This document shows positions 17,238 to 39,286 of a DNA stretch of 41,087 nt, piece by piece. The stretch comes from Candidatus Woesearchaeota archaeon (GTDB lineage: Archaea > Nanobdellota > Nanobdellia > Woesearchaeales > UBA10216): positions 1 through 41,087 of the forward strand of contig JACPIH010000004.1 of the NCBI GenBank assembly GCA_016188155.1, read 5' to 3'. Position 1 is the stretch's first letter. Every line of letters starts with the position of its first letter. Below the pieces are notes generated by a model. That model did no database searches, was not told the DNA's origin, and saw only the letters and a list, made by a program, of their open reading frames with translations. A program made the translations under genes and the position numbers.

Positions 17238-17269
17238 TTTTGGATTGACCCTTTTAACAAAAGGGTCAA
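17238..17269 (+). repeat. Hairpin element copy A (TTGACCCTTTT-AAC-AAAAGGGTCAA, 11-bp stem)
   Basis: Perfect inverted repeat 17245-17255/17259-17269 preceded by GTTTTTGGA. Confidence 0.85.
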
Positions 17270-17313
17270 AGGGCAACGTATTTAAATGTTTTCCCCACCC
17301 ACTTGAAGGCACT

Positions 17314-18216
17314 ATGTTGTTGTCAAGCGTTGTTGTGGCTGGGAAGCTGGTTTCGCAGCAGAAGTGGGTAAGTTACGTTAGCGGCTTGCGGAATGAGTGC
17401 GATAAGCTTGGCTTTTTCAAAACAAAGGCAGCTGTCAAAAAAGAGATTTACGCAGCCATGGTTGCGGCTGTGAAGAAAAGGGCCGTCGCACATAAAAGAT
17501 TCGGCGTCCTCCTGTCTGGCGGTGTTGACAGCTCATTCATCGCTCTCCTGCTGAAGAAGCTTGGCTACAGGTTTCCGTGCTTCAGCGTTGGCATCATTGG
17601 CAGCAAGGACCTGGCGGCAGCAAAATATGCGGCGAAGAAGCTAAAGCTGAGGCTGGTTTCAAAGGAATTCACCGTTGCAGCTGCTGGGAAAATAATAAAG
17701 GAAGCTGTCAAGCTTCTTAAAACAGATAGCCCTGTTACAATTGGCATAGCAGCAACAGAGATTGCGGCGTTGAAGCTGGCAGCAGCGAATGAAATTAGCG
17801 TAGTCTTTACCGGCTTGGGTTCTGAGGAGATATTTGCAGGCTACCAGCGCCATGCAGCTGCGAAAGACATCAACGCAGAGTGCTGGGCTGGCTTGAAGGG
17901 AATGTGGCAGCGTGACTTCCTCAGGGATTTTGCAGTGGCAGCCAAGTTTAAGGCAACAGCATTGACTCCTTTTCTGGATAAGAATGTTGTTGTGACTGCG
18001 ATGAGGGCTCTGCCGGAATGGAAAATAAGCGGCGGTGAAAAGAAGCTGATATTGCGCGAAATAGCAGCAGCTGCCGGGCTGCCAAAAAACATCGCGTTCA
18101 GGCCTAAGCTGGCTGCCCAGTACGGCTCTGGCTTCGACAAGGCCTTGGAAAAGCTTGCAAAAAGGGCAGGATTCGGCAACAAGCGGGATTACCTCGTTTG
18201 TTTTCCGCAGTGGTAA
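17314..18216 (+). CDS. Asparagine-synthase-like PP-loop protein lacking the glutaminase domain
   Basis: FGVLLSGGVDSSFIALLLKKLGY; FTGLGSEEIFAGYQRH; LTPFLDKNVV; N-terminal region too short for an Ntn glutaminase domain. Confidence 0.85.
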   Translation: MLLSSVVVAGKLVSQQKWVSYVSGLRNECDKLGFFKTKAAVKKEIYAAMVAAVKKRAVAHKRFGVLLSGGVDSSFIALLLKKLGYRFPCFSVGIIGSKDLAAAKYAAKKLKLRLVSKEFTVAAAGKIIKEAVKLLKTDSPVTIGIAATEIAALKLAAANEISVVFTGLGSEEIFAGYQRHAAAKDINAECWAGLKGMWQRDFLRDFAVAAKFKATALTPFLDKNVVVTAMRALPEWKISGGEKKLILREIAAAAGLPKNIAFRPKLAAQYGSGFDKALEKLAKRAGFGNKRDYLVCFPQW

Positions 18217-18286
18217 CTTTCCCTTGCTTTTCAGACATAAAAATCTAAAAATTTATAAATCTCTCTCCGGTGCCAATTTCAGTAAA

Positions 18287-18928
18287 ATGAGGTTGAATCT
18301 GCTTATGGTTTTTGCAATTGCCGCTGCAGCCGTTGTTCCGCAGCTTGTCTCGGCTCACCTGCTTGACGGCAATAAGGGGCCTGTTGACGCTTTCAATTAT
18401 GATGAGGGCCAGCTTAAGCACCTTGACAGCGACTGTGCCGCCTCTTTCGAGTGCAAGCCGAACGATGTCAATGGCGTTTATTTCTACAACTGCCATTATG
18501 ACGTTTATTCTTCAGAGTGCCAGTGCTTGAAGGGCGAGTTTTCGAAATGCGATGCGGCTAAGAGCTCGCTTGGGGCAGCGGCTGTGGCAACAGGCGGTAT
18601 CGGCGGTGTTTTTGACGCTGTCAAGGTAACCGTGAAAACCGCTTTCGGCTTATTTGACTCGTTGCCTGCACTGGCAAAGGTTGCTATCCTGGCTATTGTG
18701 GCAGCTGCGGCAGTGTTTGCTTTCAGCAGGCTCAGGAGCACAGCTTCCAATAACCTAAGAAGGGCAAGGGAGTTTCACGAACAAGCAACCCTGCTTCATG
18801 AGGCAGGTGATGAGGAAGAGGCTAAGCTGCTGTTGGAAAGGTCAAACTACCACCGCGAGAAGGCTTATGAGCAGATGAGGCAGCAAAACCCTTTTGCCGA
18901 AAAGGGTTTATCGAAAACTGGAAAGTGA
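18287..18928 (+). CDS. Secreted/membrane Cys-rich protein with cytoplasmic helical tail
   Basis: Signal peptide MRLNLLMVFAIAAAAVVPQLVSA, six-Cys luminal segment, TM (VAILAIVAAAAVFAF), helical tail; C-terminus read through hairpin copy B. Confidence 0.75.
   Translation: MRLNLLMVFAIAAAAVVPQLVSAHLLDGNKGPVDAFNYDEGQLKHLDSDCAASFECKPNDVNGVYFYNCHYDVYSSECQCLKGEFSKCDAAKSSLGAAAVATGGIGGVFDAVKVTVKTAFGLFDSLPALAKVAILAIVAAAAVFAFSRLRSTASNNLRRAREFHEQATLLHEAGDEEEAKLLLERSNYHREKAYEQMRQQNPFAEKGLSKTGK
18886..18918 (-). repeat. Hairpin element copy B (AAACCCTTTT-GCCG-AAAAGGGTTT, 10-bp stem), reverse orientation
   Basis: Inverted repeat 18886-18895/18900-18909; minus strand reads TTTTCGATAAACCCTTTT. Confidence 0.75.
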
Positions 18929-18935
18929 ATGGAAA

Positions 18936-19661
18936 ATGGAATGGTACGAAGAGCTTGGGTTTGAAAGTAACCCATTTGACAACAGCCCCGGCTTCGCAGC
19001 GAAGTTCGCTGTAGGGCTTGAAAAGCCTTTGGGCGAGCTTGAGTATTATGCAAGCTCTGGCAGCCTTGTTTTTGTAGAGGGCGCTGCTGGCTCTGGCAAG
19101 AGCGTCCTGCTCAGGAAGCTTGCCGGGAAGCTTGGCGGCAGGGCTGTTTATGCTGATTGCTCTGCTGCCGAGGTTGATGTCAGGTCAATAATTAGGAGAA
19201 AAACCTCGCTGCTTGACAAGCTGCTTGGAAGGCGCCCGAAAAACCTTGTGCTAATGATTGATAGTACAACAAACCTCTCCGCAAACACCATGGACCTGCT
19301 AAAGTACCATTACGACAGCAACAGCCTCGGCTCAATCATTTTTGCAGGCGCCAGCTTGAAGTCCGCACGGCTGTCACCGGCGCTTGTTGACAGGATAGGA
19401 AGCAGGATTGTGAAGCTGCCAGCCCTTAGTGGGGATGACGCTGTGCTTATGGTTAAGAATCGTCTTGGTAATTCTTCCATCCTGAGCGATGGTGTTATTC
19501 GTAAGCTTTATTGGATGTCTGGAAAAAACGCTGCGAAGCTTCTTCAGCTCTGCGAGAAAGCGTGCAGGGCTGCTGTTTTGTCGAAGTCTTCAGAAGTCAA
19601 TGATGAGCTTTTGGTGAAGATGAAAAAGGAGATGCTGGTAACGGGTGATTCGCTTGGCTGA
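18936..19661 (+). CDS. ExeA/Orc1-like AAA+ ATPase (paralogue 1)
   Basis: LGFESNPFDNSPG start, Walker A GAAGSGKS, Walker B-like LVLMIDST (no DE). Confidence 0.85.
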   Translation: MEWYEELGFESNPFDNSPGFAAKFAVGLEKPLGELEYYASSGSLVFVEGAAGSGKSVLLRKLAGKLGGRAVYADCSAAEVDVRSIIRRKTSLLDKLLGRRPKNLVLMIDSTTNLSANTMDLLKYHYDSNSLGSIIFAGASLKSARLSPALVDRIGSRIVKLPALSGDDAVLMVKNRLGNSSILSDGVIRKLYWMSGKNAAKLLQLCEKACRAAVLSKSSEVNDELLVKMKKEMLVTGDSLG

Positions 19662-20700
19662 CGTTTGGTTCAGGAAGCTTGGCTTCAGCCGAAATCCATT
19701 TAACATAAAGCCTGCAGCCTTCAGCTACGAGCTGTTCGGCATCAGCTTGGATGGCGTGCTTTCAGGCATTGAGGAAGGCAAGGTCCTTTTCGTTGAAGCT
19801 CCTCTTGGCTACGGCAAGACAACAATGCTGAAAGGCATCATTCACCGCTTTGGAGGCAGGAAGAAGGTCATTTATGCCAATGCCCTGCCCTCTGAGAAGG
19901 TTGATGTCAAGGACCTTCTGAAGCGTTCTTCCCTTGTAAACTACATCACAGGAAGCCTTCCTACGGGCATGATTCTTGTTGTTGACGAGGCACAGAACCT
20001 TACCTCTGGCAACAGCGCTGAAGTTTTTGAGTTTTACAGAAGCGGCAACGTAAGGGCGGTTGTTTTCTTCGGCACAAGGTACAGCAGGACAAGCTTCGTT
20101 GAGGGGCTCAACAGTGTGATGAATGGCAATGTAATCCACCTTTCCAGCCCAACGCCAGAACAGGCCATTTCCCTTGTAAGGGGCAGGATTGGCAACCTTC
20201 CTCTTCTTTCTGATGACACGATAAGGGCTGCCTACCGCAGGGCAAAAGGCAACCCGAGAAGGCTTTTGCAGATTTGTGATGACCTTTGCAGGTATGCGTC
20301 CGAGCTCGGCAAGCTACCTGCCCAGGAAATGGAGCCGCCAGCAACCGCAGCAGAAGCAACAGGAGCAACAGAAACAGCAGAAGCTGAGCAGCCAGCCGCA
20401 TCAGCCGCATCAGCCACAGCAGCCATAGCAGTTGTTCCTGCAAAGAGAAGAGGTCGTGCTAAAGCTGCCTCAGCGGCATCAGGAAGAAAGCCCAAACAGC
20501 AAAAAAACAAGCAGAAAAATAAGCGGCAGAGGCAGTCGAAGGGAAAAAGCCCGCCAAAGTTATCGAAGCCGTTAAAATCATTAAAATCATCAAAGACGTC
20601 AACGCATGCGGCAACTATAAAATCAACCGTTACAAACTACCAGCAGCCCGAGAGCACCGAGGGAAGCTACTGGGGCGAGTTCATGGGGATGCAGAAGTAG
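19645..20700 (+). CDS. ExeA/Orc1-like AAA+ ATPase (paralogue 2) with basic low-complexity C-terminus
   Basis: LGFSRNPFNIKP, Walker A APLGYGKT, Walker B MILVVDEAQN; tail of Ala/Thr/Glu then Lys/Gln/Ser-rich repeats ending SYWGEFMGMQK; overlaps the upstream gene. Confidence 0.85.
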   Translation: MIRLADVWFRKLGFSRNPFNIKPAAFSYELFGISLDGVLSGIEEGKVLFVEAPLGYGKTTMLKGIIHRFGGRKKVIYANALPSEKVDVKDLLKRSSLVNYITGSLPTGMILVVDEAQNLTSGNSAEVFEFYRSGNVRAVVFFGTRYSRTSFVEGLNSVMNGNVIHLSSPTPEQAISLVRGRIGNLPLLSDDTIRAAYRRAKGNPRRLLQICDDLCRYASELGKLPAQEMEPPATAAEATGATETAEAEQPAASAASATAAIAVVPAKRRGRAKAASAASGRKPKQQKNKQKNKRQRQSKGKSPPKLSKPLKSLKSSKTSTHAATIKSTVTNYQQPESTEGSYWGEFMGMQK

Positions 20701-21088
20701 AAATAGATATAGGTGAGTGGTTCTTGTAGTGACCTTTTGGTCCGTTTGCCCATAGTTCCCTAGCATTTCTTCTCTTTTCCTCTACAATGCGTCTCTCAAG
20801 CCCGCCCAACAGAGGTAATTCACCGCGGACCTTTCTCGACGCTTCCAGGATCATCCCTCCGGTAACAGAAGGCGGGGAATCCTTTATGCTCTGCTCAAGG
20901 TCAAGGTACAATATACCATTTACTTCAACTGAAACTAAGCAAGGACTATCGCTTCCTATTCCTGAGCCGTTAGAGCCCTGAGAAGCGACAGCATCATATT
21001 CCGGGTCAATACGAGGAATAGGAATAGTAGAACCATCTTCACTGACTAGCTGCCCGCTATTGTTGATGTACCAGTAGTCAGTCACCAT
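20681..21088 (-). CDS. Hypothetical protein
   Basis: 135 aa ORF; overlaps the 3' end of AAA2 by 20 nt; inverted repeat AACTAC...GTAGTT upstream. Confidence 0.6.
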   Translation of the reverse strand: MVTDYWYINNSGQLVSEDGSTIPIPRIDPEYDAVASQGSNGSGIGSDSPCLVSVEVNGILYLDLEQSIKDSPPSVTGGMILEASRKVRGELPLLGGLERRIVEEKRRNARELWANGPKGHYKNHSPISISTSASP

Positions 21089-21144
21089 TAACTACTACTC
21101 ATGGTAGTTTGAAGTATTTAAATCTTTTTCCAGCGCGGCAGCGA

Positions 21145-22210
21145 TTACCTCAAATGTATCTCCACAACGTCCTTGTCGGCCAGCTTGTGGTCAATCTTGA
21201 ACTTCTGCCCCGGGAACTTGGCTGACTTGCCCCATACCCTTGAGAACTTGAACTTCGCAACGAAATCGCGGTGCAGCTTTTCGCACACTTCTTTTATCGT
21301 AATTCCATGCCTCATTATTAGTGGCGTTTGCAGGTCAGGCTTTTTCCCAACCTCCTTGAGGTACACCCTGATCAGGCTTAGCTTGCTGTAAATTTTCTCT
21401 TTCAGCTTGTCAATGTTCATGTTTTTCTCTGCAGAAATAAGGATGGCTTCCTCGTTTTTGTCAATGGCCTGGCTGCTCCGAAGTTGCATCTGCAGCTGTT
21501 TCATTCCTTCATCGTTGAGTGAGTCAATCTTGTTCACGACGGCGATTGCGGGCATGTATTTTCGGTTTCCTTCAATGGCGTCTATGAGCTGGTCTGCGTT
21601 TATGTCCTCCCTTATGACGACATCTGCGCTTACTATCCTGAACTCGTTGAGTATGGCCCCTATGGTTTTCTCATCAATCTTTGTGAGTTTTACCGTTGTT
21701 GCTATGCTCAGCCCTCCCCTCCTCAAGCTCTTTTCTCAGTGTACCAATCTGGTTTACCGTGAACACGTCAACCATAAGGATTGCAAGGTCCGCGTTTCTT
21801 GCTACAGCTATTACCTCCTTGCCCTTTCCAAGCCCTGATGCCGCTCCTTTTAGTATGCCCGGAACGTCCAGCACCTGTATTTTGGCGCCGTTGTGCTCCA
21901 TTATGCCTGGTATGCAGGTTAATGTTGTGAAGTCGTAGGCTGCTGTTTTTGATTCTGCATTGGTTGTTTTGTTGAGCAGCGTTGATTTTCCAACCGAAGG
22001 AAAGCCTATCAGTATGACGGTGGCATCGCCGCTTTTCCTTACAGCATAGCCCTCGCCTTTTTTGCCGCCTTTTGAGCGCGCAACTGCCCTTTCCTTGAGG
22101 CGGGCTATCTTTGCCTTTACAAGGCCTATGTGGTGCTGCGTTGCCTTGTTGTACTGCGTCTTGGATATCTCTTCCTGCAGCGCCCTTATTTCCTCTTCGT
22201 AGCTTACCAT
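21145..22210 (-). pseudogene. DRG/Obg-family GTPase with TGS domain, split by an apparent frameshift
   Basis: N-terminal half ORF 21674-22210 (GFPSVGKSTLLNK, DVPGILKGAASG) and C-terminal half ORF 21145-21726 (VVNKID, TGS domain TPLIMRHGITIKEVCEKLH...GQKFKIDHKLADKDVVEIHLR) in different frames; together they form a full-length DRG-like protein. Confidence 0.85.
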
Positions 22211-22327
22211 TTACATCCTACACCTTCTGAGAGCTTCTCAAATTTGGTTTTGGTTAAGAGCTTTTCGGCTCACATACCAATTATTCTCATGCCCTTATCA
22301 CTAGAATCCTTCACCCCACAACTAAAA

Positions 22328-22347
22328 TAATCACTAATTAGTGGTTA
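22328..22347. promoter_or_regulatory. Near-palindrome TAATCACTAATTAGTGGTTA upstream of a TATA-like box
   Basis: Core CACTAATTAGTG (22332-22343) is a perfect palindrome; TTTAAATA box follows at 22359. Confidence 0.45.
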
Positions 22348-22411
22348 AAATAGAAAGATTTAAATACTGGCAGTCTATAGGGGCTATTGAGTTAATAAGC
22401 AAGGTGAAAAA

Positions 22412-23350
22412 ATGAAGCTCAATATTGGCAAATGGTTTTCAAGAAGCGGAAGAGCAAAAGCAGCCGACTCTGGGCAAGGGTTAGCATACGACCAAAGCCT
22501 GGCAATGAGTAAAATAGAGTTTGCTATTCGCACGTGGTTTGTCACACAATACCTGGAGTTTATTGGATCAAAGGACGCAAGCTCTGCAAACATAACTGTT
22601 TCTGGCGGGCATAATTCCGGTGAGTATGTGCCATATGCGTCACGACCTCAAATTAATACGGGTGTGCTCTCACTTCCTGTAATGTGGGGAAGGGGCCCGG
22701 AAAGTTATTTAATTGCTCAAACAGTCATAGATGAAAACACTGACCGCCCTTTTAGTGGAAACTTAGAAAGGTTGATAGACGGTGGGGCTGATATGGCTTC
22801 GTACGTCGCTAATAATTCTAATAAGTTTTTGGAGGCGACTAAAATAGTTTTACAGATTCGGCCTTTAAGCTCAGACCGTGAAGCTGAATTGTTCTCACAG
22901 GGAATAGTCTATCGTTTAAGAGGAGTTTATTCAAACGAATTAGTGCCTAAAGTTTCCGGGGAAGAGTTGGAAGCTTTCGAATTAGGAGCGGCTGTTGGTA
23001 GTGCAGCTAACCCAGATTTTGGCGGTCACTTGAACGGAACAACATGGGCCGTAATGCAAGCATGCGAAGCAAGCGGGAAAGACCCAAGAATGTTTGGTCG
23101 TAAGGTGCTGGAGGAAATACTTTCCGATAAGGCGTTTAGTGATGGTATAGATTATTATAACCGTGAAGGTAAAGTACAAAACCCGGCAGGTCACCAAGTG
23201 TTAGTTAGTTTTAAAGAAGGAACATATCCTCTTCACTTGACTGGGCTAGATTTCTCGAGGGAGTATTATGGGTTTATTTACAAAGCACTCGATAAGGTTC
23301 TTGGTTTGCAAATGGGTAATTTAAGGTCAAAAGCTGGAAGCCCTAAGTAA
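22412..23350 (+). CDS. Hypothetical protein, 312 aa
   Basis: ORF preceded by TTTAAATA and the SD-like AAGGTGA; no family recognised. Confidence 0.75.
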   Translation: MKLNIGKWFSRSGRAKAADSGQGLAYDQSLAMSKIEFAIRTWFVTQYLEFIGSKDASSANITVSGGHNSGEYVPYASRPQINTGVLSLPVMWGRGPESYLIAQTVIDENTDRPFSGNLERLIDGGADMASYVANNSNKFLEATKIVLQIRPLSSDREAELFSQGIVYRLRGVYSNELVPKVSGEELEAFELGAAVGSAANPDFGGHLNGTTWAVMQACEASGKDPRMFGRKVLEEILSDKAFSDGIDYYNREGKVQNPAGHQVLVSFKEGTYPLHLTGLDFSREYYGFIYKALDKVLGLQMGNLRSKAGSPK

Positions 23351-23394
23351 AAACCGATGCGAAAATATGCGGATAAAACAGCCTGTTCAATACC

Positions 23395-23655
23395 CTAAAT
23401 CTTTTCCAGCATGCTGACGACGTTCCACAGCTGGGTTCTGCTGTAAGACTGCAGGTTTGAGTCCTCTGACAGGCTGTCGAGAATCTGAAGTGCCTTGTTA
23501 ATCCTTATTGAAACCTCTAGCTTTTCGTCTTTGAGTGTTTCAATTACGTTATGAACCTTTTCCTTCACGTTCTTTGGGACAGTATTGTCGTCCTGAAGCT
23601 CTGAGATGGCGGCGATTATGCCTTCAACAGTTTGGGCTTTGCTTCCGGGGAACAT
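23395..23655 (-). CDS. UPF0147 family protein
   Basis: 86 aa; ISELQDDNTVPKNVKEKVHNVIETLKDEKLEVSIRINKALQILDSLSED. Confidence 0.92.
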   Translation of the reverse strand: MFPGSKAQTVEGIIAAISELQDDNTVPKNVKEKVHNVIETLKDEKLEVSIRINKALQILDSLSEDSNLQSYSRTQLWNVVSMLEKI

Positions 23656-23656
23656 T

Positions 23657-23992
23657 TTAGTGCTTGTTCATTGACTCTATTACGTCTTTTTGGAGCGATG
23701 CTGCCTTTTCCCTTGTCTTTGTTTCCTGCTTTTCAAGGGAGCTTATCCTGAGCTCCACGGTTTCCTTCTTTTCCTTGAGGTCTTTCTCAAGCTCTTCTTT
23801 CCTGGTTAGGACCATTATGTTGCCCACTATCTTGTATGCCTCCTGTGTTCCCTCAAGCTCTTTCAGGGCCGAGTCTGTCTCCATGAGCTGGAGCTGGAAC
23901 GCCTGTTTTTGCATGAGGAGCTGCTGTAGTGCCTGCTCGAGCATCTGGAGCTGCCTTATCTTCTCTTGCGTTTGTTCAGGTATCTCTGGCAT
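23657..23992 (-). CDS. pfdB: Prefoldin subunit beta
   Basis: QLQMLEQALQQLLMQKQAFQLQLMETDSALKELE...VGNIMV coiled coil. Confidence 0.93.
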   Translation of the reverse strand: MPEIPEQTQEKIRQLQMLEQALQQLLMQKQAFQLQLMETDSALKELEGTQEAYKIVGNIMVLTRKEELEKDLKEKKETVELRISSLEKQETKTREKAASLQKDVIESMNKH

Positions 23993-23993
23993 T

Positions 23994-24224
23994 TTAATCA
24001 CCAATCCTCTTGACTTTCTCTATGACTGTGAGGACTTTTGTTATTGAGTTCAGCACGGTCCTTAATCCCACGCTGTTTTCTGCATCAATGGCGAACGCAA
24101 CCCCCTCTGCAGTTTTCCTTATCTTGTAGCTTGCCTTTTCTTTTATTGCTGTGTCTTCTGCAGCGAAGACCTTTTGTATCAGCGCTGCATCGCCGCTTAC
24201 GTTTATGACTGCCGAGTATTTCAT
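23994..24224 (-). CDS. pcc1: KEOPS complex subunit Pcc1
   Basis: 76 aa; AFAIDAENSVGLRTVLNSITKVLTVIEKV; located next to prefoldin and RpoP. Confidence 0.75.
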   Translation of the reverse strand: MKYSAVINVSGDAALIQKVFAAEDTAIKEKASYKIRKTAEGVAFAIDAENSVGLRTVLNSITKVLTVIEKVKRIGD

Positions 24225-24243
24225 GTGGCTGCTGTGCGGATTC

Positions 24244-24381: not shown

Positions 24382-24382
24382 T

Positions 24383-24736: not shown

Positions 24737-24814
24737 CTTAGTTTTACCTGAATTTTGGATTGGGGCGTGCTTTATAAATCTATGTGGTTTTACAGGTGGA
24801 TTTCTTGGCCAGTC

Positions 24815-25060
24815 GTTTTTTGATTAACCTTTCCACATCGTCTTTGGACGATGGGACCAATCGAGCTTGCTCGATTTGGTTTCCTAAAAAGGTTGAATGG
24901 GGCCACCCGGACTTTCAGCGGACCCTTTTGCTCGTTGCGACTCGCAAAAGCGCCCCCGGAAAACGACGGCGTTTTTGGTTGAGCTTTTTTGCGAACTGCG
25001 TGAACTGCGTGAGCAAAAAAGGTCATTTGAACCGGGGTCATCTGGTCCCAAACCAGATAG
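24815..25060 (+). repeat. Compound cluster of hairpin elements (copies C, C2, D plus nested hairpins)
   Basis: GTTTTTTGATTAACCTTT...AAAAAGGTTGA enclosing two further hairpins; CTTTTGC/GCAAAAG at 24925-24950; GAGCTTTTTTGC/GCAAAAAAGGTC at 24981-25024; ATCTGGT/ACCAGAT at 25040-25058. Confidence 0.75.
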
Positions 25061-25150
25061 GTTAGACCAAGCTGCCCCATGGCCCCATGCCAACTGAGTC
25101 TTTCACTATGTTTTTTAAATGTATTGAAATTCCCCTGCCTTTTGCAAATC

Positions 25151-25158: not shown

Positions 25159-25181
25159 CCCTTTTTCATGCCTTTTTTGAC

Positions 25182-25337: not shown

Positions 25338-26441
25338 ATGAGCTTGACAGAAAAGCAGAAGCATGACCTGAAGAAGTTCATCAAGGAGCTTGAGCAGTAT
25401 AAGGGCAGGCATACCGAGCTTGTCTCTGTTTACATCCCGCAGGGCTATGACATAGTCAAGATTATACAGCACATCCAGCAGGAACAGGGAACAGCCATGA
25501 ACATAAAGTCAGCTACGACAAGGAAGAATGTTACCGGCGCCCTTGAGCGCATGGTCCAGCACCTGCGCCTTTACAGCCGAACTCCTGGCCATGGCCTGGC
25601 GGTTTTCTCCGGCAACATTGCTGCCGAGGGCCAGCAGGATTTCAGGGTGTGGAGCATAGAGCCTCCCATTCCAGTCCAGACAAGAATCTACCGCTGCGAC
25701 AAGGACTTTGAGCTTGGCATCCTGCAGGGCATGCTTGAGACTAAGGAGACTTACGGCCTTGTTGTCATGGACAGGAGGGAATGCGTTATTGCCGAGCTTC
25801 GGGGCAAGAGCATTACCATAATTTCAAAGCACACTTCCAATGTTCCTGGGAAATTCCGAGCCGGTGGGCAGTCTGCACAGCGTTTTGGCCGCATAAGGGA
25901 GAACGCTGCAAAAGAGTTTTACGTGAGGGTTGGCGAGTACATCAAAGAGGCTTTTTTTAACAACCAGTACCTTAAAGGAATAATTATTGGCGGCCCAGGC
26001 CCTACTAAGCACGAGCTTATTGAGGGCAGTTTCATCACCAATGAGCTTAAGAAAAAGATTATTGCCGTAAAGGACATTACCTACACGGATGAGTTTGGCA
26101 TCCATGACCTTGTTGACAAGAGCCAGGATGTCCTCGCTGCCGAGGAGCTTGCAGGGGAGAAAAAGCTTGTCAACCGCTTTTTCGGCTACCTTGTTACCAA
26201 GCCGGGCATGGTTACTTATGGTGAGCAGCACGTTCTGCAGGCAATCGGTAACGGCTCTGTTGACATATTGCTTCTCTCTGAAAGTCTTACTGACGAAAAG
26301 ATTGAGTCTTTTGAGCAGGAAGCAAAGAGGATGGGTACCAATGTTGCGATAATCTCAACCGAAACCAGGGAAGGCGCCCAGCTTAAGGACTTTGGCGGCA
26401 TCGCGGCCATTCTGAGGTATGAGGTTAATACAGAGACTTAG
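25338..26441 (+). CDS. prf1: Peptide chain release factor aRF1
   Basis: TATTRKNVTGALERMVQHLR-type region (SATTRKNVTGAL), KFRAGGQSAQRFGRIRE (GGQ motif). Confidence 0.97.
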   Translation: MSLTEKQKHDLKKFIKELEQYKGRHTELVSVYIPQGYDIVKIIQHIQQEQGTAMNIKSATTRKNVTGALERMVQHLRLYSRTPGHGLAVFSGNIAAEGQQDFRVWSIEPPIPVQTRIYRCDKDFELGILQGMLETKETYGLVVMDRRECVIAELRGKSITIISKHTSNVPGKFRAGGQSAQRFGRIRENAAKEFYVRVGEYIKEAFFNNQYLKGIIIGGPGPTKHELIEGSFITNELKKKIIAVKDITYTDEFGIHDLVDKSQDVLAAEELAGEKKLVNRFFGYLVTKPGMVTYGEQHVLQAIGNGSVDILLLSESLTDEKIESFEQEAKRMGTNVAIISTETREGAQLKDFGGIAAILRYEVNTET

Positions 26442-27241
26442 TGATGCCGCAGCAAATTTTTTATACGCCTTATTCCAGTTGCAACCCCATGGGCATTGTT
26501 GAAGAAGCGTTCTCGCGATTGTTCCCTGAAGCAGCTTTTGCTTATGCTGTGCACCTGCGTTATTCGGGCAGGTTCAAGCCGTACAACGCAACCGTGAGGA
26601 AAGTCGGCAGCTCCCTTTATTTTAACCTCAGCAGAAGCTGGAAAAGCACCAGTGAAGAGATTGTCATAGGCCTTATCCAGCATCTTCTTGTCAAGATTTT
26701 GAGAAAGGAACGTTTTTTGGCGGCTGCAAGAGATAATAGCGGAAAAACATCGTCATTGAACATGCAGCTTTATGACGATTTTATTAAGGGGATTTCTGAA
26801 GTTGCAGCAGTTAACAATGGCAACGGCAGCAGCGATGAGAGTCTTGAGTCGTCCTTCGCCAGGGTGAATGAGAAATATTTTCTTGGCATTGCTGACAAGC
26901 CAAACCTGAGATGGGGCCTTGACTCATTTAGGAAGCTTGCAAGCTACGACTACCACACCAACACAATTACCGTGAGCAACCTTTTTCGTGATGCCCCGCA
27001 GCAGCTTCTTGACTATCTCATGTATCACGAGCTGCTTCACAAGAAGCTGAAGTTCAGCAGCAGCGGAAATGGCAGGGCAGTGCATCACAGCAGGGAATTC
27101 AGGGCCCTGGAGCAAAATTTTGACGGGAACGACACAATTGAGGATGAGCTTAATGCTTTTATTCGTGGCATGACCTTTTTCAGAAAAAGGTCAATCAAAA
27201 ACCGCACTTTTAGCTGGCGCAGGCTGCTGCTGTTGCGTTAA
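26441..27241 (+). CDS. SprT-like zinc metallopeptidase
   Basis: LDYLMYHELLHKKL (HExxH), HSREFRALEQNF, RWG...ITVSNLFRDAP; C-terminus read through hairpin copy E. Confidence 0.85.
   Translation: MMPQQIFYTPYSSCNPMGIVEEAFSRLFPEAAFAYAVHLRYSGRFKPYNATVRKVGSSLYFNLSRSWKSTSEEIVIGLIQHLLVKILRKERFLAAARDNSGKTSSLNMQLYDDFIKGISEVAAVNNGNGSSDESLESSFARVNEKYFLGIADKPNLRWGLDSFRKLASYDYHTNTITVSNLFRDAPQQLLDYLMYHELLHKKLKFSSSGNGRAVHHSREFRALEQNFDGNDTIEDELNAFIRGMTFFRKRSIKNRTFSWRRLLLLR
27171..27202 (-). repeat. Hairpin element copy E (TGACCTTTTT-CAG-AAAAAGGTCA), reverse orientation
   Basis: Inverted repeat 27171-27180/27184-27193; minus strand reads GTTTTTGATTGACCTTTTT. Confidence 0.88.
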
Positions 27242-27263
27242 ATTTATATATGAACCGAGTTAG

Positions 27264-27295
27264 TTTTTTGATCAACCTTTTTTGTAAAAAGGTTG
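27264..27295 (+). repeat. Hairpin element copy F (CAACCTTTTT-TGT-AAAAAGGTTG)
   Basis: Inverted repeat 27273-27282/27286-27295 preceded by GTTTTTTGAT; followed by the SD-like GAGGTG and the aIF5A ATG. Confidence 0.88.
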
Positions 27296-27310
27296 TGAGG
27301 TGTGCAGTTT

Positions 27311-27973: not shown

Positions 27974-27977
27974 AGGC

Positions 27978-28013
27978 TTTCTTGGTTCGTTTCTTGGTTC
28001 GTTTCTTGGTTCG
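27978..28013 (+). repeat. Three tandem 12-bp repeats (TTTCTTGGTTCG)x3
   Basis: Perfect copies at 27978, 27990 and 28002, leading into TTTCTTGATTGACC of hairpin copy G. Confidence 0.9.
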
Positions 28014-28045
28014 TTTCTTGATTGACCTTCTTCCTAAGAAGGTCA
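28014..28045 (+). repeat. Hairpin element copy G (TGACCTTCTT-CCT-AAGAAGGTCA)
   Basis: Inverted repeat 28023-28032/28036-28045 with head TTTCTTGAT. Confidence 0.88.
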
Positions 28046-28088
28046 TGATAAAGGAAGCTTTTTAAATAGCCACAGTAGCTTTTCTTTC

Positions 28089-30719: not shown

Positions 30720-30723
30720 TTTT

Positions 30724-31360: not shown

Positions 31361-31463
31361 GGGCCTTTTCTTTTTTCTTTTCTTTATTCTTCTTGCTTTC
31401 AACTTTTTCTCACGGTTTTTTTTTCCAAAAAGCATTTAAATAAGAGTTTGTACGTCTGCAGTT

Positions 31464-31925: not shown

Positions 31926-31926
31926 T

Positions 31927-32367: not shown

Positions 32368-32417
32368 GGGCTGATTCCGCACAAACTTTTTATCCCGTTG
32401 TGTTTCTCGTTGCAGCT

Positions 32418-33155
32418 ATGGAGCTTGACATTGCAGCCTTTAATGACGCCTTGGGCAAAAATGCCGTAATAATCCTCAGCTGCAGCTGCGAAATCCATTA
32501 CAGCGGCAGGGCTGAGAGCTTTCTTGGCAGCGGCGGCAGGATTATTGTAATTAAAGCCGACAAAACACTTTTAATCCACCAGCCGGCAGGCAGCAATCCC
32601 ATTAATTACATGAAAGAAGGCACCAGCTACAGCCTTTCCCGCAATGAAGGAAAACTCGTTCTTCGCTGCAGCAATATTCCTTTGAAGGAATACATGGACA
32701 TCTTTATCTCAAAAGTCCATTCTTTCCAGCAGCTGCAGATGGAAGATTCCGCGAAAATCCAGCTTGTTGGCTCTGAAAGGGATATGTCTGACATGATTTA
32801 CGGTAATCCTGCTTTGATTGAGCCTGGCTTCAAGCCTCTCAGTCGTGAGGAGCATACAAAATACGGCTTTATTGACGTTTTCGGCTACGATAAAAACAAT
32901 GTTCTTGTCGTCATCGAATGCAAGCGGTACACAGCAGACTTGAAGGCTGTTGACCAGCTGCAGCGCTATGTCAAGAAAATCAAGGAGCTAAAGGGCCTTG
33001 TCAAAGTCCGCGGCATAATAGCAGCCCCGGAAATTTCCCCAAACACTCTTCAGATGCTGAAGGACAACGGGTTTGAGTACAGAAAGATTTCCCCGCCAAA
33101 GTACCTTGAGCGTTTTAACAAGGGCCAGAAAAGCCTTGGGGACTATGAGTCTTAG
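32418..33155 (+). CDS. nucS: Endonuclease NucS/EndoMS
   Basis: YGFIDVFGYDKNNVLVVIECKRYTADLKAVDQLQRYV nuclease core; C-terminal QKSLGDY PIP-like. Confidence 0.93.
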   Translation: MELDIAAFNDALGKNAVIILSCSCEIHYSGRAESFLGSGGRIIVIKADKTLLIHQPAGSNPINYMKEGTSYSLSRNEGKLVLRCSNIPLKEYMDIFISKVHSFQQLQMEDSAKIQLVGSERDMSDMIYGNPALIEPGFKPLSREEHTKYGFIDVFGYDKNNVLVVIECKRYTADLKAVDQLQRYVKKIKELKGLVKVRGIIAAPEISPNTLQMLKDNGFEYRKISPPKYLERFNKGQKSLGDYES

Positions 33156-33158
33156 AAG

Positions 33159-35591
33159 TTACTGGCCGTGCCTTTGCATCCGCTTTTCTTTTGCTGCTAT
33201 CGTCATCAGCGTCTTCACAACTGCATCCGGGTTTAGTGATATTGAATCTATCCCGCATTCTACCAAGAACTCAGCAAATTCAGGATAATCGCTTGGGGCC
33301 TGCCCGCAAATTCCAATCTTTCTCTTCTTTTTCTTTGCGACTTCTATGACGTGCTTTACCATCCATTTTACTGCGTCGTTCCTTTCGTTGAAAATGTGGC
33401 TTATGAGTTCAGAGTCGCGGTCAACGGCGAGCGTGAACTGCGTCAGGTCGTTGCTGCCTATGCTGAAGCCGTCAAAAATCCCTGCAAATTCCTCAGCAAG
33501 GATTACGTTGCTTGGCACCTCGCACATCACATATACATCAAGCCCGTCCTTGTGCTGCTTTAGTCCGTAGGAAGCCATTGCGGCGATGACTTTCTTTCCT
33601 TCTTCCGGGGTTCTGCACATGGGAACCATTGCTTTTATGTTTATCAGCCCAATTTCTTCCCTTGCCTTGAGGAAGGCCTTGCATTCAAGCTCGAAAGCTT
33701 TTTTGTAAGCCTCGCTGTAGTACCGGCTGGCGCCTCTCCATCCAAGCATCGGATTCTCTTCTTTTGGCTCGAACAGGTGCCCTCCTATGAGGTTGGCGTA
33801 TTCGTTGCTTTTGAAGTCGCTCAGCCGGACTATTACGTCATTCGGGTAGAATGCGGCAGCAATGGTTGCGATTCCTTCTGCTAATCTGTCAATAAAATAT
33901 TGTTTCTTGTCCTTGTAGCTGTGAGTGAGCCCTTCTATCGTCTTTTTCACAACAACGTCCTTTATTTTGTCGTATTCCACAAGTGCAAGGGGGTGTATTG
34001 CTATGTAATTATTGATTATGAACTCCTCCCTTGCCAGCCCTACCCCCTGAACTGGCAAAAAGCTGTACTTGAATGCCTCTTCCGGGCTTCCTATGTTCAC
34101 CATTACTTTTGTCCTTGTTTTCGGCAGCCGCTTCAGGTCAATGTGCTCAACGTCGTATTTCAGCAGCCCATTGTAAACCCGGCCTTCTTCGCCTTCGCTG
34201 CAGCTAACTGTTATCTTTTGCCCTTCTGCTATTTTCTCTGTTGCGTTGTTTGTTCCCACAATGCAGGGTATGCCCAGCTCCCTGCTCACAATTGCAGCGT
34301 GGCATGCCTTGCCGCCCCTGTTGGTGACTATTGCGGCTGCCATTTTCATGATAGGCACCCAGTCCGGGTCTGTCATTTCTGTTACAAGCACTTCTCCTGC
34401 TTTGAACTCCTTGATGTGCCTTATTTCCCTGATTATGTGTGCCGTGCCCTGGCCAATCCTGTCCCCAACGCTCTGCCCGGAAGCCAGCAGCCTGCCTCCC
34501 TCTTTCAGGACATACCTGTCAAGCCGGGTGATATCCCTGCCTGCCTGGACTGTTTCAGGCCTTGCCTGCACTATGAACAGCTTTCCCGTCAAGCCGTCCT
34601 TTGCCCATTCAAGGTCCATTGGAGTGGGCTTGCGGTTCTTCTGCGAGTAGTGGCTCTCTACTATGCATGCCCACCTTGCCAGCGTCAGTATTTCCTCGTC
34701 TTTGAGAACATAGTTTTTCCTCTCCTCATACGGTACATCCACATTTTTTGTCGTTGCGGCGCCTTCCTGGTTGTACACCATGCGTATCTTTTTGTCGCCA
34801 AGCTTCTTTGATATGATTGCCCTGTGCCCTTTCATCAGGGTTGGCTTGAAAACACTGTATTCGTCAGGGTTTATCCTGCCTTTCACTATGTTTTCTCCAA
34901 GCCCGTATCCTGCGCTTATCGCAACAACGTCCTTAAATCCTGATTCTGTGTCTATGGTAAAAATAACCCCTGAGCCTGCTTTGTCAGACCTGACCATTTT
35001 CTGGACCCCAATTGATAATGCAACTTTGAAATGGTCAAAGCCTTTCTCATGCCTGTAAACTATTGCCCTGTTGGTAAACAATGACGCAAAGCACTTCCTG
35101 CACGCTTCCAGAAGTGAGCTTTCCCCTCTTATGTTCAAATACGATTCCTGCTGTCCTGCAAAGCTTGCTCCGGGCAGGTCCTCGGCTGTTGCAGAGCTCC
35201 TTACAGCTACATCAACATGGCTGCCGTACTCCTTGCACATCTTTGCATATGCTTCGGCAATCTCTTTTTTGAGCTTCTGCGGGAACTCTGCCCCCATGAT
35301 GAGCTCCCTGACGTGGTGCCCGGCTTCTGCCAGCTTTTCAACGTCCTTGACTTTGAGCCCTGAGAGAATCCTTCTGACGTCTTTCTCTATTCCTGCTTCC
35401 CTGAATAAAAGCCTGTAGGCTGTTGCTGTTATCGCAAATCCGTTTGGTATGTTCACGCCTTTCCTGACCAGCTCGCGGTACATCTCGCCCAGCGAGGAAT
35501 TCTTCCCGCCCACAAGCGGGGTGTCCTCTATTGTTATCTCATTGAACCACAGAATAAGTGAATTCTTCTTGTTTTTGGTTTCCTTGTCCAA
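33159..35591 (-). CDS. ppsA: Phosphoenolpyruvate synthase
   Basis: VGGKNSSLGEMYREL; TNRGGKACHAAIVSRELGIPCIVG; CGQAPSDYPEFAEFLVECGIDSISLNPD. Confidence 0.97.
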   Translation of the reverse strand: MDKETKNKKNSLILWFNEITIEDTPLVGGKNSSLGEMYRELVRKGVNIPNGFAITATAYRLLFREAGIEKDVRRILSGLKVKDVEKLAEAGHHVRELIMGAEFPQKLKKEIAEAYAKMCKEYGSHVDVAVRSSATAEDLPGASFAGQQESYLNIRGESSLLEACRKCFASLFTNRAIVYRHEKGFDHFKVALSIGVQKMVRSDKAGSGVIFTIDTESGFKDVVAISAGYGLGENIVKGRINPDEYSVFKPTLMKGHRAIISKKLGDKKIRMVYNQEGAATTKNVDVPYEERKNYVLKDEEILTLARWACIVESHYSQKNRKPTPMDLEWAKDGLTGKLFIVQARPETVQAGRDITRLDRYVLKEGGRLLASGQSVGDRIGQGTAHIIREIRHIKEFKAGEVLVTEMTDPDWVPIMKMAAAIVTNRGGKACHAAIVSRELGIPCIVGTNNATEKIAEGQKITVSCSEGEEGRVYNGLLKYDVEHIDLKRLPKTRTKVMVNIGSPEEAFKYSFLPVQGVGLAREEFIINNYIAIHPLALVEYDKIKDVVVKKTIEGLTHSYKDKKQYFIDRLAEGIATIAAAFYPNDVIVRLSDFKSNEYANLIGGHLFEPKEENPMLGWRGASRYYSEAYKKAFELECKAFLKAREEIGLINIKAMVPMCRTPEEGKKVIAAMASYGLKQHKDGLDVYVMCEVPSNVILAEEFAGIFDGFSIGSNDLTQFTLAVDRDSELISHIFNERNDAVKWMVKHVIEVAKKKKRKIGICGQAPSDYPEFAEFLVECGIDSISLNPDAVVKTLMTIAAKEKRMQRHGQ

Positions 35592-35731
35592 CTAAACTTC
35601 CCCCTCTTTTCTGCTGATGGCTGTTACCACAGCTGCCGCTTATTTAAACTTTGCTTTTTCTCCCTTCTACATGATGTTTTTAATTTTTGCCCTTGGAAAA
35701 GTATTAATACGCCCGTGTTACAGCGTATTTT

Positions 35732-36445
35732 ATGGCAGCTAATAGCAAATTGCAAAAATATTCAAACTTATTACGTCTTGTCATTGTGGCATCTGCTCCT
35801 GTAATGATTATTCTTGCAAGCTACGCGTTTCTGCTTTCAAGCAATGGCTATCTTTACTCTCTCGCAGCAGCCACAGCCACCCCGGAAAATGCAGCGCAGC
35901 AAATGACTAGGGAAACCGCAACGGCTGTATCGGCAGACGTTATTGCTTACGTTAAAGGTGACGAATCGGGGATGCAGTATGCCTCTTATTTTAGGCCTGA
36001 GGAGCTCTCCCATCTTGCTGATGTCAGGGCTGTAATGTCTGCATTGTTTGCCCTTATGTATTTTCTGGCAGTAGTTACTGCAGCTTCGATAGTCTGGCTT
36101 TTTGTTATCTCACGCAATACTGCATCTTTTATCTTTGCCTTGAAACAGGCATTTTTTTGGTCAGGACTGGCTGCTGTGGCCTCGGTTGCCATCCTGTTTA
36201 TCGCGTCTCTTGGCTTCGATTTAGCCTTTACAGCTTTTCACAAGCTTCTTTTTAGAAGCGGCCAGTGGCAGTTCCCTTCCGATTACCTGCTTGTTAACCT
36301 CTTTACTACTGATTTTTTTGCAGGGATGGCAAGGGACATTTTGCTTGGCTCCCTGTTTTTCGGGGTTTCTCTGATCGCTGCAGCTGCCGCTGCCAAGAAA
36401 TTTATCCGGCCAAGTGCTAAGAAGGTGGTGAATGTTGGAAAGTAG
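35732..36445 (+). CDS. Polytopic membrane protein, unknown
   Basis: 237 aa with about four TM segments. Confidence 0.75.
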   Translation: MAANSKLQKYSNLLRLVIVASAPVMIILASYAFLLSSNGYLYSLAAATATPENAAQQMTRETATAVSADVIAYVKGDESGMQYASYFRPEELSHLADVRAVMSALFALMYFLAVVTAASIVWLFVISRNTASFIFALKQAFFWSGLAAVASVAILFIASLGFDLAFTAFHKLLFRSGQWQFPSDYLLVNLFTTDFFAGMARDILLGSLFFGVSLIAAAAAAKKFIRPSAKKVVNVGK

Positions 36446-37085
36446 CTTTTCGCAGTCAAAAGCGTTGAAAATAATCTCTCTGCTTAAGCAGCGATATGGC
36501 CGAAGCTTCCACCGCAATGAAGACCCCTTTTTTGTTCTCATCTTTACAGTTCTTTCAGCAAGGAACCGGGACGCCCAGACTTACAAGGCAGCCACGGCAT
36601 TGTTCAGGCGATTCCCAACGATGAAAGGTTTGGCGGCTGCAACAACCGCCGAAATTGAAAAAACAATCAAATTCATCGGCCTTTTCAGGCAGAAGGCAAA
36701 AAGAGTCAAGGCAATTTCGCAGCAGCTGTTACAGAAGTACGGCGGCAAAGTCCCGGACTCTATGGATGAGCTGCTGCAGCTTCCAGGAGTTGGAAGGAAA
36801 ACAGCCAGCTGCGTTCTCATTTACGCCTACAACAAGCCAGCTATTGCCGTTGACACCCACGTCCACAGGATTTCCAACCGCATTGGCCTTGTAAAAACAA
36901 AATCTCCTGAGCAGACAGAGAAAGCGTTGATGCAGCTGCTGCCGAAAGGTAAATGGCTCGACATCAACGAACTTCTAGTGAAGCATGGTCAGCAGACCTG
37001 CCTGCCAATTAAGCCGAGATGCCCTGAGTGCCCTGTTAAGAAATACTGCAATTATTACGTGACTATTTTCCAGAAATCCCTTTGA
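36432..37085 (+). CDS. nth: Endonuclease III
   Basis: LPGVGRKTASCVL HhH, VDTHVHRISNRIGL, CLPIKPRCPECPVKKYC [4Fe-4S]. Confidence 0.95.
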   Translation: MLESSFSQSKALKIISLLKQRYGRSFHRNEDPFFVLIFTVLSARNRDAQTYKAATALFRRFPTMKGLAAATTAEIEKTIKFIGLFRQKAKRVKAISQQLLQKYGGKVPDSMDELLQLPGVGRKTASCVLIYAYNKPAIAVDTHVHRISNRIGLVKTKSPEQTEKALMQLLPKGKWLDINELLVKHGQQTCLPIKPRCPECPVKKYCNYYVTIFQKSL

Positions 37086-37494
37086 ACGTCCTTTCGGCTT
37101 CTTCCTGCGACCTTTTTATTTTTTCTTCTGATGTTGCCGAAGTTGGCGCATTATTCAGCAGCTGCATTATCCTTTTGCCTTCTTCTGTTTTCTTATCAGT
37201 GTAATTGTAAATCGGGTTCTCTGCCAAGTCACACATCCTTTTTCCGGGAAAATCCCTGCAGTTGTTCGGCCTGTTTTCATAGATTGTGCAAATCCCGATT
37301 CTGCCTTCCCGCTTGAAGAACGTGCACCATCCATTCTCCCGCTTCAGCAGCGGCTTCCCGTCGTTATCGGCAGCAACAAATTCTTCTCGTTTGCGGCCGC
37401 TGCCTTTTTCTATTCGCTTTATGTCCTTCTCGCTTAATCTGACCGTCAATGTGCAGCACAGACCACAGAAGGTGCAGTTGTCAGGAATGGTCAT
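37063..37494 (-). CDS. YkgJ-family cysteine cluster protein
   Basis: CTFCGLCC, CTIYENRPNNCRDFPGKRMC. Confidence 0.85.
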   Translation of the reverse strand: MTIPDNCTFCGLCCTLTVRLSEKDIKRIEKGSGRKREEFVAADNDGKPLLKRENGWCTFFKREGRIGICTIYENRPNNCRDFPGKRMCDLAENPIYNYTDKKTEEGKRIMQLLNNAPTSATSEEKIKRSQEEAERTFKGISGK

Positions 37495-37545
37495 ATTTGG
37501 CTTGGCTGCTTTCTGTTCAATTTAAATATTCTGTGATTCCTCAGG

Positions 37546-37890
37546 TCAAACTTTCGACTGCTTGTAAAACCGGCTTAAGAATGGCTCGTGACTACCTGTT
37601 ATTGCTTCAACAGCTGCCTCAATCTGAATAGCACTTCTGTATGGGATTTTTCCTCCACTAAACCAGTCATGTAAGGAGGCATAGTTTACCTCTGAAAGTT
37701 TGCCGGAAGGATCGTGAATTGCCAAAATGTCAATAAGCTTCTCTCTGGATGTGCCGCCCATCTGCCTTATCAGTTCCTGCATGACAGAGTGTATTGACGG
37801 CTGCTTCATTAGCTCCTCAAGGTCTATGCCAACTTTCGGTTGCCCGTTGGCACCGAAAGGTTTTATACGGTCTCCTGCCATGCCTGACAC
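37546..37890 (-). CDS. Hypothetical protein
   Basis: 114 aa ORF with TTTAAATA-type box upstream on the minus strand. Confidence 0.65.
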   Translation of the reverse strand: MSGMAGDRIKPFGANGQPKVGIDLEELMKQPSIHSVMQELIRQMGGTSREKLIDILAIHDPSGKLSEVNYASLHDWFSGGKIPYRSAIQIEAAVEAITGSHEPFLSRFYKQSKV

Positions 37891-37944
37891 GGTGCTTTAC
37901 TTTGGTTTAAATATTATTCTATGACGTCGTTCCAACTTCTGGCA

Positions 37945-39213
37945 CTAGAAGAATTCGTTCAGCCCTTTCTGCTTTCTTTTTGCAGCAACAGTTTCTTTTT
38001 TCATTTCGCTTCCGTTTAGTACCGGCTTCCCGTAAACCCCGTCGTAGCCAGGCTCTACCTTTATCCTGCTTTCCCTGTTCTTTATAATTGCAGCAGCCAA
38101 TTTTTCGTCTACCGCTTTTTTTAATTCTGTCTCCGGAGCCTCAAGTAGAACGTTAAATTCGTTGCCAAACCTTTCAATAAGCGAGTTATAAATCTGCCAC
38201 GTTTTTCTCGAAGCTACCGGAAACCCGTTCAGCTCTGCGATTATTTCGGAAAGCGGTATCAGTGATTTGAATGGCACTGCTTCTTTTTTCACAAATCCTT
38301 CTGGCCTGTCAGGAGCAGCCAGCTCGTTCACCCTGTTCAGCACTCCAATTGTTAGTTTCTTGCCGCATTTTGGGCACACGTTCTTGTGTTCTGCCGACTC
38401 CTCCGGGCTCATGACAACATTGCAGAGCCTGTGGCCGTCAAAATGGTATTTGCCGTAGGAAGGCGGGGTTTCAACCGTTTCAACGAACCCTTTCCTTTCC
38501 CTTATGGCTGCAAGCACGTTCTTGTAAGTAAGCTCCTTAAATTCAAGCACGTTTGCTTCCCTTCCCATGCGCCAGGGCCAGTAGCTGTGGCAGTCTGAGT
38601 TTGACGTGAGAGTTATGCCATCCAGCCAGGGTATGCGCCAGTTCATTGCAGGGTCGCTTGACATTCCCGTCTCAATTGCGTGGATTTTGTTAACTTTGTC
38701 GCCAAAGCACTCCTTTAGCGAGTCAAAGCCGGATTCTGAGCCGAATATTCCGAACCAGCTTGTCCACGCATGCGCCGGTATGAGCTCAATATCGTTGCTT
38801 ATCCGCATCAGCTCGTCAAGCAGCTCTATGCTGTCCATTCCGAATATGGGCCTCCCGTCGTAACCCACCCTGCCTTTCTTTAGAAGAAACTCTGTTATCT
38901 GCTGGACAACCTCGCCGCTTGGTGCAAGTATGATGTAATGTATCCTTCTGCCTTTCCCGTTTTGCGTGTAGGCAAGTGAGAGCTCAGTCTGCCACAGGAA
39001 TGGAAATCCTGTGCTGCTGTAAAGAATGCCTTTCTCGTCTTCCTTTAGTTTGGTTTTTACTTCCTGAACCCATTTAGGATGCGTAAAGTCGCCAGTGCCT
39101 AGCAGCCCTACTCCCTTTATCCTTGCATACTTTTCAAGGTTCTCAAGGCTCAGGTCCTTGCTGCATGCCCTGCTGTAACTACTATGAATATGCAGATCAG
39201 CTATTAGCTTCAT
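37945..39213 (-). CDS. endoQ: Endonuclease Q (PHP-domain)
   Basis: MKLIADLHIHSSYSRACSKDLSLENL; GTGDFTHPKW; TSNSDCHSYWPWRMGREANV; C-terminal PIP box QKGLNEFF. Confidence 0.92.
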   Translation of the reverse strand: MKLIADLHIHSSYSRACSKDLSLENLEKYARIKGVGLLGTGDFTHPKWVQEVKTKLKEDEKGILYSSTGFPFLWQTELSLAYTQNGKGRRIHYIILAPSGEVVQQITEFLLKKGRVGYDGRPIFGMDSIELLDELMRISNDIELIPAHAWTSWFGIFGSESGFDSLKECFGDKVNKIHAIETGMSSDPAMNWRIPWLDGITLTSNSDCHSYWPWRMGREANVLEFKELTYKNVLAAIRERKGFVETVETPPSYGKYHFDGHRLCNVVMSPEESAEHKNVCPKCGKKLTIGVLNRVNELAAPDRPEGFVKKEAVPFKSLIPLSEIIAELNGFPVASRKTWQIYNSLIERFGNEFNVLLEAPETELKKAVDEKLAAAIIKNRESRIKVEPGYDGVYGKPVLNGSEMKKETVAAKRKQKGLNEFF

Positions 39214-39286
39214 ATGCGTTTTTGATCAACCTTTTTGTTAAAAAGGTTGTGCTGCTGTGGATGTGCCCGTCAAAAATTATCTTCAT
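39197..39286 (-). pseudogene. Remnant PHP-domain N-terminus (29 codons) fused to hairpin copy H
   Basis: Own translation: MKIIFDGHIHSSTTFLTKRLIKNAYEANS*; first 12 residues match EndoQ MKLIADLHIHSS at 9/12. Confidence 0.65.
39218..39249 (+). repeat. Hairpin element copy H (CAACCTTTTT-GTT-AAAAAGGTTG)
   Basis: Inverted repeat 39227-39236/39240-39249 preceded by GTTTTTGAT. Confidence 0.88.

Follow-up and report, generated by a model that had tools for sequence, protein, structure and literature searches.

Apparently mobile archaeal hairpins whose head and stem arms covary by the rule of an intrastrand triplex

The 41,087-nucleotide stretch of DNA analysed here (the window), from a Woesearchaeota-type DPANN archaeon, contains members of a multi-copy family of hairpin elements that display target duplications, empty orthologous sites and covariation of three segments, the two arms of the stem and the head that precedes them. 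Comparison of sequences indicates that the copies are mobile, and the element is probably non-autonomous, its folded DNA single strand being recognised and mobilised by either a putative enzyme or host repair.

The hairpins are far more frequent than composition predicts. Six perfect hairpins (stem of at least 10 bp, loop of 3-4 nt) occur in the window, compared with a mean of 0.08 and a maximum of 1 in 60 dinucleotide shuffles, and across the 1.08 Mb genome of the host the pattern ACCYTTTTN{3,5}AAAARGGT has 31 matches against 0 for the reversed control pattern. A covariance model made from 23 copies recovered ~40 full-length copies in the same genome. Within the stem, four of the ten pairs vary on both sides, 100% of cells are paired and 0/500 shuffles were as good. 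These data bear out a sequence-only reading of the window, which had listed seven hairpins, held that their arms covary, proposed a genome-wide search with a covariance model and named the lack of any excess over a dinucleotide-shuffled control as the result that would count against it. All seven were read and checked at their coordinates, and six have perfect stems of 10-11 bp and loops of 3-4 nt; copies lie beside genes in both orientations, as had been claimed (18886 and 27171 are in minus orientation). The seventh (24981-25024) is present and proves to be a distinct subtype within the intron of a minus-strand tRNA-Pro(TGG) gene, and the list, given as at least seven, had missed a long multi-hairpin member at ~24813-24897. 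The pairing described was perfect, although the stem proper is exactly 10 bp, with the T of GAT unpaired. The head, described as T-rich, is not merely that, as it covaries with the stem.

The element is ~36-40 nt long, with the consensus CG-TTTTXGAT-NR-ACC-YTTTT-nnn-AAAAR-GGT-YN'. A logo of 114 oriented copies reads CG-TTTTTTGAT-NR-ACC-TTTTT-nnn-AAAAAGGT-YN', after which TGC is preferred and further out there is no conservation. The outer pairs NR/YN' are free to vary, but in every copy (127/127) they are Watson-Crick, with no G-U; this pairing was not a criterion in selecting the 127 copies. The next pair outwards does not form, T standing opposite T in 81/127 copies. The subclasses have the arms AAAAA in A, AAAAG in B, AAGAA in C, AAAAG with a left-arm A-G mismatch in D, and AAAGG with a G-G mismatch in E. 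In the long forms further hairpins sit inside the loop. The members found in the window are listed in Table 1.

Table 1. Hairpin elements and associated features of the window.
Feature	Position	Strand	Details
Element, class B	17232..17270	+	Head GTTTTTGGAT, stem TGACCCTTTT/AAAAGGGTCA; model 49.9 bits; class C long form at the G007 site
Element, class B	18884..18923	-	Head TTTTCGAT; in C-terminal codons of a gene; model 38.5 bits; conserved in G007
Long member: head, basal stem, two inner hairpins	24813..24897	+	Outer pair is a G-T mismatch; weak model match, 17.6 bits; layout common to long forms L124, L113 and L087
tRNA-Pro(TGG) with 114-nt T-loop intron	24898..25086	-	Exons 25086-25025 and 24910-24898; intron 25024-24911; spliced gene recognised by ARAGORN
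Element, atypical subtype, inside tRNA intron	24966..25027	+	Head GTTTTTGGTTGAG, arms CTTTTTTGC/GCAAAAAAG, long loop; model 23.9 bits; class B element at the matching T-loop position in G007
Element, class A	27169..27207	-	C-terminal codons of ORF 26441-27241; model 55.8 bits; conserved in G004
Element, class A	27259..27297	+	Between TATA-like box and start of next gene; model 58.3 bits; absent at the matching site in G004 and G007
Element, class C	28009..28047	+	Head TTCTTGAT, stem ACCTTCTT/AAGAAGGT; model 52.3 bits; conserved in G004; head amplified in tandem on upstream side
Head-side copy of duplicated gene start	39178..39213	-	MKLIADLHIHSS; joined to intact gene, strongly changed
Element, class A	39213..39251	+	Within 5' end of minus-strand PHP-domain-like gene; model 54.5 bits; G007 site empty
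Tail-side remnant of gene start	39250..39286	-	MKIIFDGHIHSS; 1 base off the G007 gene

The sequence-only reading had raised selection on the hairpin as one possibility, and the data support it and extend it to a third strand. In 137 copies chosen by the stem alone, with the five bases preceding GAT left free, the purine arm, read in parallel register, predicts the bases of the head (T over A, and either C or G over G), with a phi of 1.00 at all three variable head/purine-arm positions. All 50 of the informative copies, those with arms other than AAAAA, fit the parallel register, whereas the antiparallel register fits only the 16/50 that are symmetric. The rule is drawn from four short arm types and one long form and, as copies of one class may share a master, the independent changes are fewer than the copies. 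Each arm type and its head were found in several genomes with differing loops, and at one orthologous site the host carries class B and G007 class C, so that all three segments differ together. As a further test, short hairpins with asymmetric arms (off-centre C/G pairs) were predicted, and none were found in 371 genomes of the phylum; this extra test thus falls to a single long form whose C/G pair is off-centre and which obeys the parallel register only. Two alternatives, in which the head pairs with the right arm in antiparallel fashion or directly repeats the left arm, were rejected, as each fails at off-centre positions.

This covariation rule fits that of a pyrimidine-type intrastrand triplex, a fold that the sequence suggests the element could adopt. 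The blocks TTTTXG, CYTTTT and AAAARG, with loops of 6 and 3-6 nt, conform to an intrastrand triplex motif in the ITxF sense, except that G lies over G in 22/28 class B heads, which is not a classical pyrimidine-motif triad; the run of triads is only ~6 long. Such a geometry is possible: alongside the purine arm, the head would run 5'->3' from the loop towards the base, and ~six bases would link it to the left arm.

Propagation of the hairpin itself, the other possibility raised by the sequence-only reading, is supported by the genome-wide copies, by empty orthologous sites and by target-site duplications. Of 104 orthologous comparisons, 30 sites were occupied and 36 had <20 bp at the position of the element; both occupied and empty sites, the comparison that reading had called for, thus exist. 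Direct repeats start immediately after YN' and recur ahead of the head. Within the genus they comprise 33 bp with two differences (L150), 26 bp (L117), 15 bp (L104), 12 bp (L012 and L084) and 11 bp (L161), and elsewhere 37 bp (Altiarchaeota), ~36 bp (Methanosarcina), 13 bp (Micrarchaeota) and 9 bp (Nanoarchaeota), so that duplication length varies over ~9-37 bp. There were 10 cases in the genus at a score of at least 11 (1.6 expected), and 10 in other archaea and Clostridia at a score of at least 12 (0.6 expected), a few of the latter being tandem arrays. The tail end is exact (+3, at the junction of GGT-YN' and target) and the head end is loose, with 0-28 extra bases. Several duplications comprise the first 5-14 codons of a gene, so that the head-side gene retains a start and a remnant is left on the tail side. 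The two copies of some duplications differ at many bases, mostly at third codon positions. At the 39227 site, where the remnant is nearly identical to G007 (Table 1), the intact side has 12/36 bases changed, third positions being altered in 7/12 cases versus 1/19 in the following codons (p 0.002), and simple ageing does not explain the difference. A search of 145 genomes of the order gave no donor for the recoded start of the gene (39178-39213).

The sister genomes are Candidatus Woesearchaeota, mostly from groundwater, and the family is unevenly distributed among them. Members of the same genus gave 110 (G001), 69 (G004), 45 (G005), 25 (G006) and 67 (G007) model matches, and the copy-poor G002 and G003 gave 5 and 1; because some of these matches are the same palindromes hit again on the reverse strand, the true numbers of copies are lower. 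The model had no matches in the 11 genomes taken from other genera of the family, few in the order, and up to 16 per genome beyond the genus. Among the matches listed, the full class-A pattern is present in Altiarchaeota, Aenigmatarchaeota, Micrarchaeota, Diapherotrites, Nanoarchaeota, Methanosarcinales and other archaea, and also in some Oscillospiraceae (a few Clostridia). A viral carrier was considered and rejected; IMG/VR gave a single match, one copy in a viral contig.

None of the four enzyme types sought (Y1 transposase, reverse transcriptase, TnpB, tyrosine recombinase) tracks copy number. The sequence-only reading had suggested looking for a Y1/HUH transposase elsewhere in the genome; Y1_Tnp (PF01797) was found in neither the host genome (G000) nor four of the five copy-rich sisters (G001, G005, G006 and G007; incomplete genomes), and G004 gave one weak match. 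A reverse transcriptase domain was lacking in the copy-rich G000, G001, G004, G005 and G007 (82-92% complete) and present in the copy-poor G002 and G003, and in G006. Of the genomes in the genus, G001 and G007 alone carry TnpB. One Xer-sized tyrosine recombinase gene is present in most genomes (none in G415) whatever the copy number, and is thus uninformative.

In tRNA-adjacent copies the tail points to the tRNA in 22/23, mostly 1-3 nt off (p 6e-6). Relative to co-directional protein genes, counted in stretches around copies with rough gene calls, the two directions are about equal (18 vs 17), and a terminator was rejected on this lack of strand preference. A protein-coding repeat was also rejected; some copies are translated, but the reading frame differs between sites. 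Rfam 15 gave 0 gathering matches in the window, and eight other loci gave only rRNA and tRNA.

In the mechanism that we favour, a single strand would fold into the 10-bp hairpin, and the 5' pyrimidine strand TTTTXG would turn back to occupy the stem's major groove in parallel orientation with the purine arm, generating T.A-T, C+.G-C and G.G-C triads and thus an intrastrand triple helix. This structure may be recognised by a putative mobility enzyme or host repair factor. Insertion would be precise at the tail, GGT-YN', but not at the head, duplicating ~9-37 bp of target. Copies would persist where harm is small, such as at gene ends, in the introns and flanks of tRNA genes, and at gene starts that the duplication rescues. 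The lack of G-U pairs in the stems and the occurrence of copies in both directions relative to genes favour a DNA single strand over RNA. It is a real possibility, advanced here tentatively, that the family represents a widespread class of archaeal mobile DNA, shared with some Clostridia, whose mobile form is a pyrimidine-motif triple-helical single strand, and that a putative new enzyme or host pathway inserts it, with variable target duplications, repeatedly at gene starts, tRNA ends and tRNA introns.

It could be argued that the element works at the RNA level: a U-rich strand would join an A-U hairpin in a U.A-U triple helix serving to cap, protect or terminate transcripts, and selection would keep copies at transcript ends. 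RNA triple helices obey the identical covariation rule, and copies do lie at the starts and ends of genes and at tRNA ends, almost all tRNA-adjacent tails facing the tRNA. It should be emphasized, however, that the near-equal directions relative to co-directional genes would leave one strand with a purine third strand, that opposite strands would be needed at the 5' and 3' flanks of tRNAs, that there are neither G-U pairs nor an Rfam family, and that empty sites and target duplications indicate insertion; we regard an RNA function as unlikely. Target-primed, retro-type (SINE-like) insertion by a reverse transcriptase acting in trans would give an exact tail, extra bases at the head, variable duplications and a T-rich end, and the ends of the element are of this form, but no reverse transcriptase was found in five copy-rich genomes, all incomplete, and one is present in G002, G003 and G006; such a route appears improbable.

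An explanation that dispenses with a dedicated enzyme, and that appears about as improbable as the retro-type route, is that the fold stalls replication and template switching then copies the element and makes the flanking repeats. Bacterial triplex motifs are tied to instability (PMC4666352), and the variable duplication lengths, the arrays in which element and duplication recur in tandem (L165, L187 and L110), the tandem amplification of the head at the 28023 copy and the failure to find an enzyme among those searched would all be consistent with this view. Template switching is, however, difficult to reconcile with an exact tail boundary, outer bases that are always paired, the fixed geometry at tRNA ends and 25-110 matches in one genus against none in sister genera. 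Least probable is a REP/BIME-type element moved by an IS200/IS605-like Y1 transposase. The short palindrome, the single-stranded and guide-like head, and dispersed copies that are intergenic or, in some cases, within genes recall such elements, which the sequence-only reading had offered as an analogy. An analogy it stays, as the foot is GAT-NR in the 114-copy logo and not GTAG or CGTC, target duplications are present and Y1_Tnp was not found in the host and most sisters. To our knowledge, IS200/IS605 insertion makes no target duplication. The folded DNA single strand is retained as the probable mobile form.

No description of this hairpin family was found in the open PubMed Central literature. 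We are not aware of previous comparative evidence of this kind that a triple helix is under selection in mobile DNA, nor of third-strand covariation in mitochondrial GC clusters or sponge hairpin elements. Here evolution itself appears to report the triplex, as three segments change together while copies move. With this family, the question of how hairpin repeats lacking their own enzyme are mobilised can be tested in archaea. It also suggests one route by which altered gene starts and tRNA introns arise again and again in DPANN genomes.

Several known systems share features with the element. MITEs are likewise short, non-autonomous and multi-copy, with target duplications; they carry terminal inverted repeats from a DDE element and have a fixed duplication length, whereas the duplications described here range widely (9-37 bp) and one end of the element is the foot of a hairpin. 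REP, REPIN and BIME elements and the CGTC repeats are also multi-copy palindromes of 20-40 bp with a short end tag, located between and inside genes, and the CGTC repeats similarly lack a known transposase (PMC3733652, PMC3116915, PMC2817692). The archaeal element is not assigned to the REP group because it lacks a GTAG tag and has target duplications, and neither a Y1 transposase nor a reverse transcriptase was found in its own genome; it differs further in lacking a CGTC tag and in having a tag that covaries with the stem. Intrastrand triplex motifs consist of three consecutive blocks of 6-15 nt with T-A-T or C-G-C type triads and loops of 1-6 nt; in bacteria such sequences are described as abundant, conserved and linked to instability, and no association with mobile elements was found (PMC4666352). 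Their biological role is speculative. Like the archaeal element, ITxF/TM-ECO are short repeats able to form a triple helix by two successive folds of one strand, and are dispersed, patchy among close relatives, intergenic, without strand bias and at variable loci (PMC4666352). TM-ECO, studied in proteobacteria, is a G-rich purine motif with a third strand that is 3' and antiparallel, in contrast with the archaeal element, which is pyrimidine-rich, parallel and 5', mostly archaeal, and has three-strand covariation and target duplications (PMC4666352). Yeast mitochondrial GC clusters (PMC4478555) and sponge mitochondrial repetitive hairpin elements (PMC2800124) are, similarly, tiny hairpins without an enzyme of their own. 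The GC clusters resemble the archaeal element in their putative target duplications, and both DNA and RNA routes are possible for them; they differ in that the duplication is the dinucleotide AG and the stems are GC-rich (PMC4478555). The yeast mitochondrial GC clusters are the nearest enzyme-less mobile hairpins, and the intrastrand triplex motif the nearest published kind.

The two copies of a duplicated gene start that lie on either side of an element encode the same peptide, and the copy on the side of the intact gene carries numerous third-position changes. At copy 39227, in the 5' end of the PHP-domain-like gene, the neighbouring codons have changed far less than the duplicated start. 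At some copies the head, together with its upstream bases, forms two to four tandem repeats, as at copy 28023, where the repeated unit is GGTTCGTTTCTT, and at three loci the element and a flanking repeat are arranged in tandem arrays.

Long members contain at least two inner hairpins, the arms of which vary from one to another while pairing is kept; these may represent a fuller or ancestral form of the element. A separate hairpin type, with arms CTTTTTGNC/GNCAAAAAG and head GTTTTTGGTTGAG, occurs mostly within or adjoining tRNA genes, and its A5G arm is likewise paralleled by a T5G head. Many tRNAs of the genus have long introns, several of which harbour elements, and the window's tRNA-Pro(TGG) has a T-loop intron that was missed by ARAGORN.

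Features associated with the elements (L-numbers, other loci with copies, in local coordinates)
Feature	Locus	Position	Detail
Recoded duplicated gene start	window	39178-39286	
Recoded duplicated gene start	L086	14200-14330	
Recoded duplicated gene start	L115	about 7019	
Recoded duplicated gene start	L024	about 1534	
Tandem head repeat	window	about 27984-28022	
Tandem head repeat	L109	about 6710	
Tandem head repeat	L014	about 1480	
Array, element and flanking repeat	L187	3939-4190	period 111 bp
Array, element and flanking repeat	L165	3671-3768	period 68 bp
Array, element and flanking repeat	L110	4871-5010	period 53 bp
Long member	L087	2600	reverse strand
Long member	L113	4967	
Long member	L124	5343 and 9775	
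Long member	window	24813	
Second hairpin type	L002	2019	
Second hairpin type	L013	1406	
Second hairpin type	L047	1723	
Second hairpin type	L130	6956	
Second hairpin type	L159	6381	
tRNA-Pro(TGG) gene with T-loop intron	window	24898-25086	orthologous sites: L087, L129

Copies also occur in Oscillospiraceae/Clostridia (L172, L184, L196 and L235), all with CG/CG outer pairs and sharing AAAAG 5' of the head and a second hairpin, GGGGC..GCCCC, 3' of the tail. These copies are a bacterial relative of the family.
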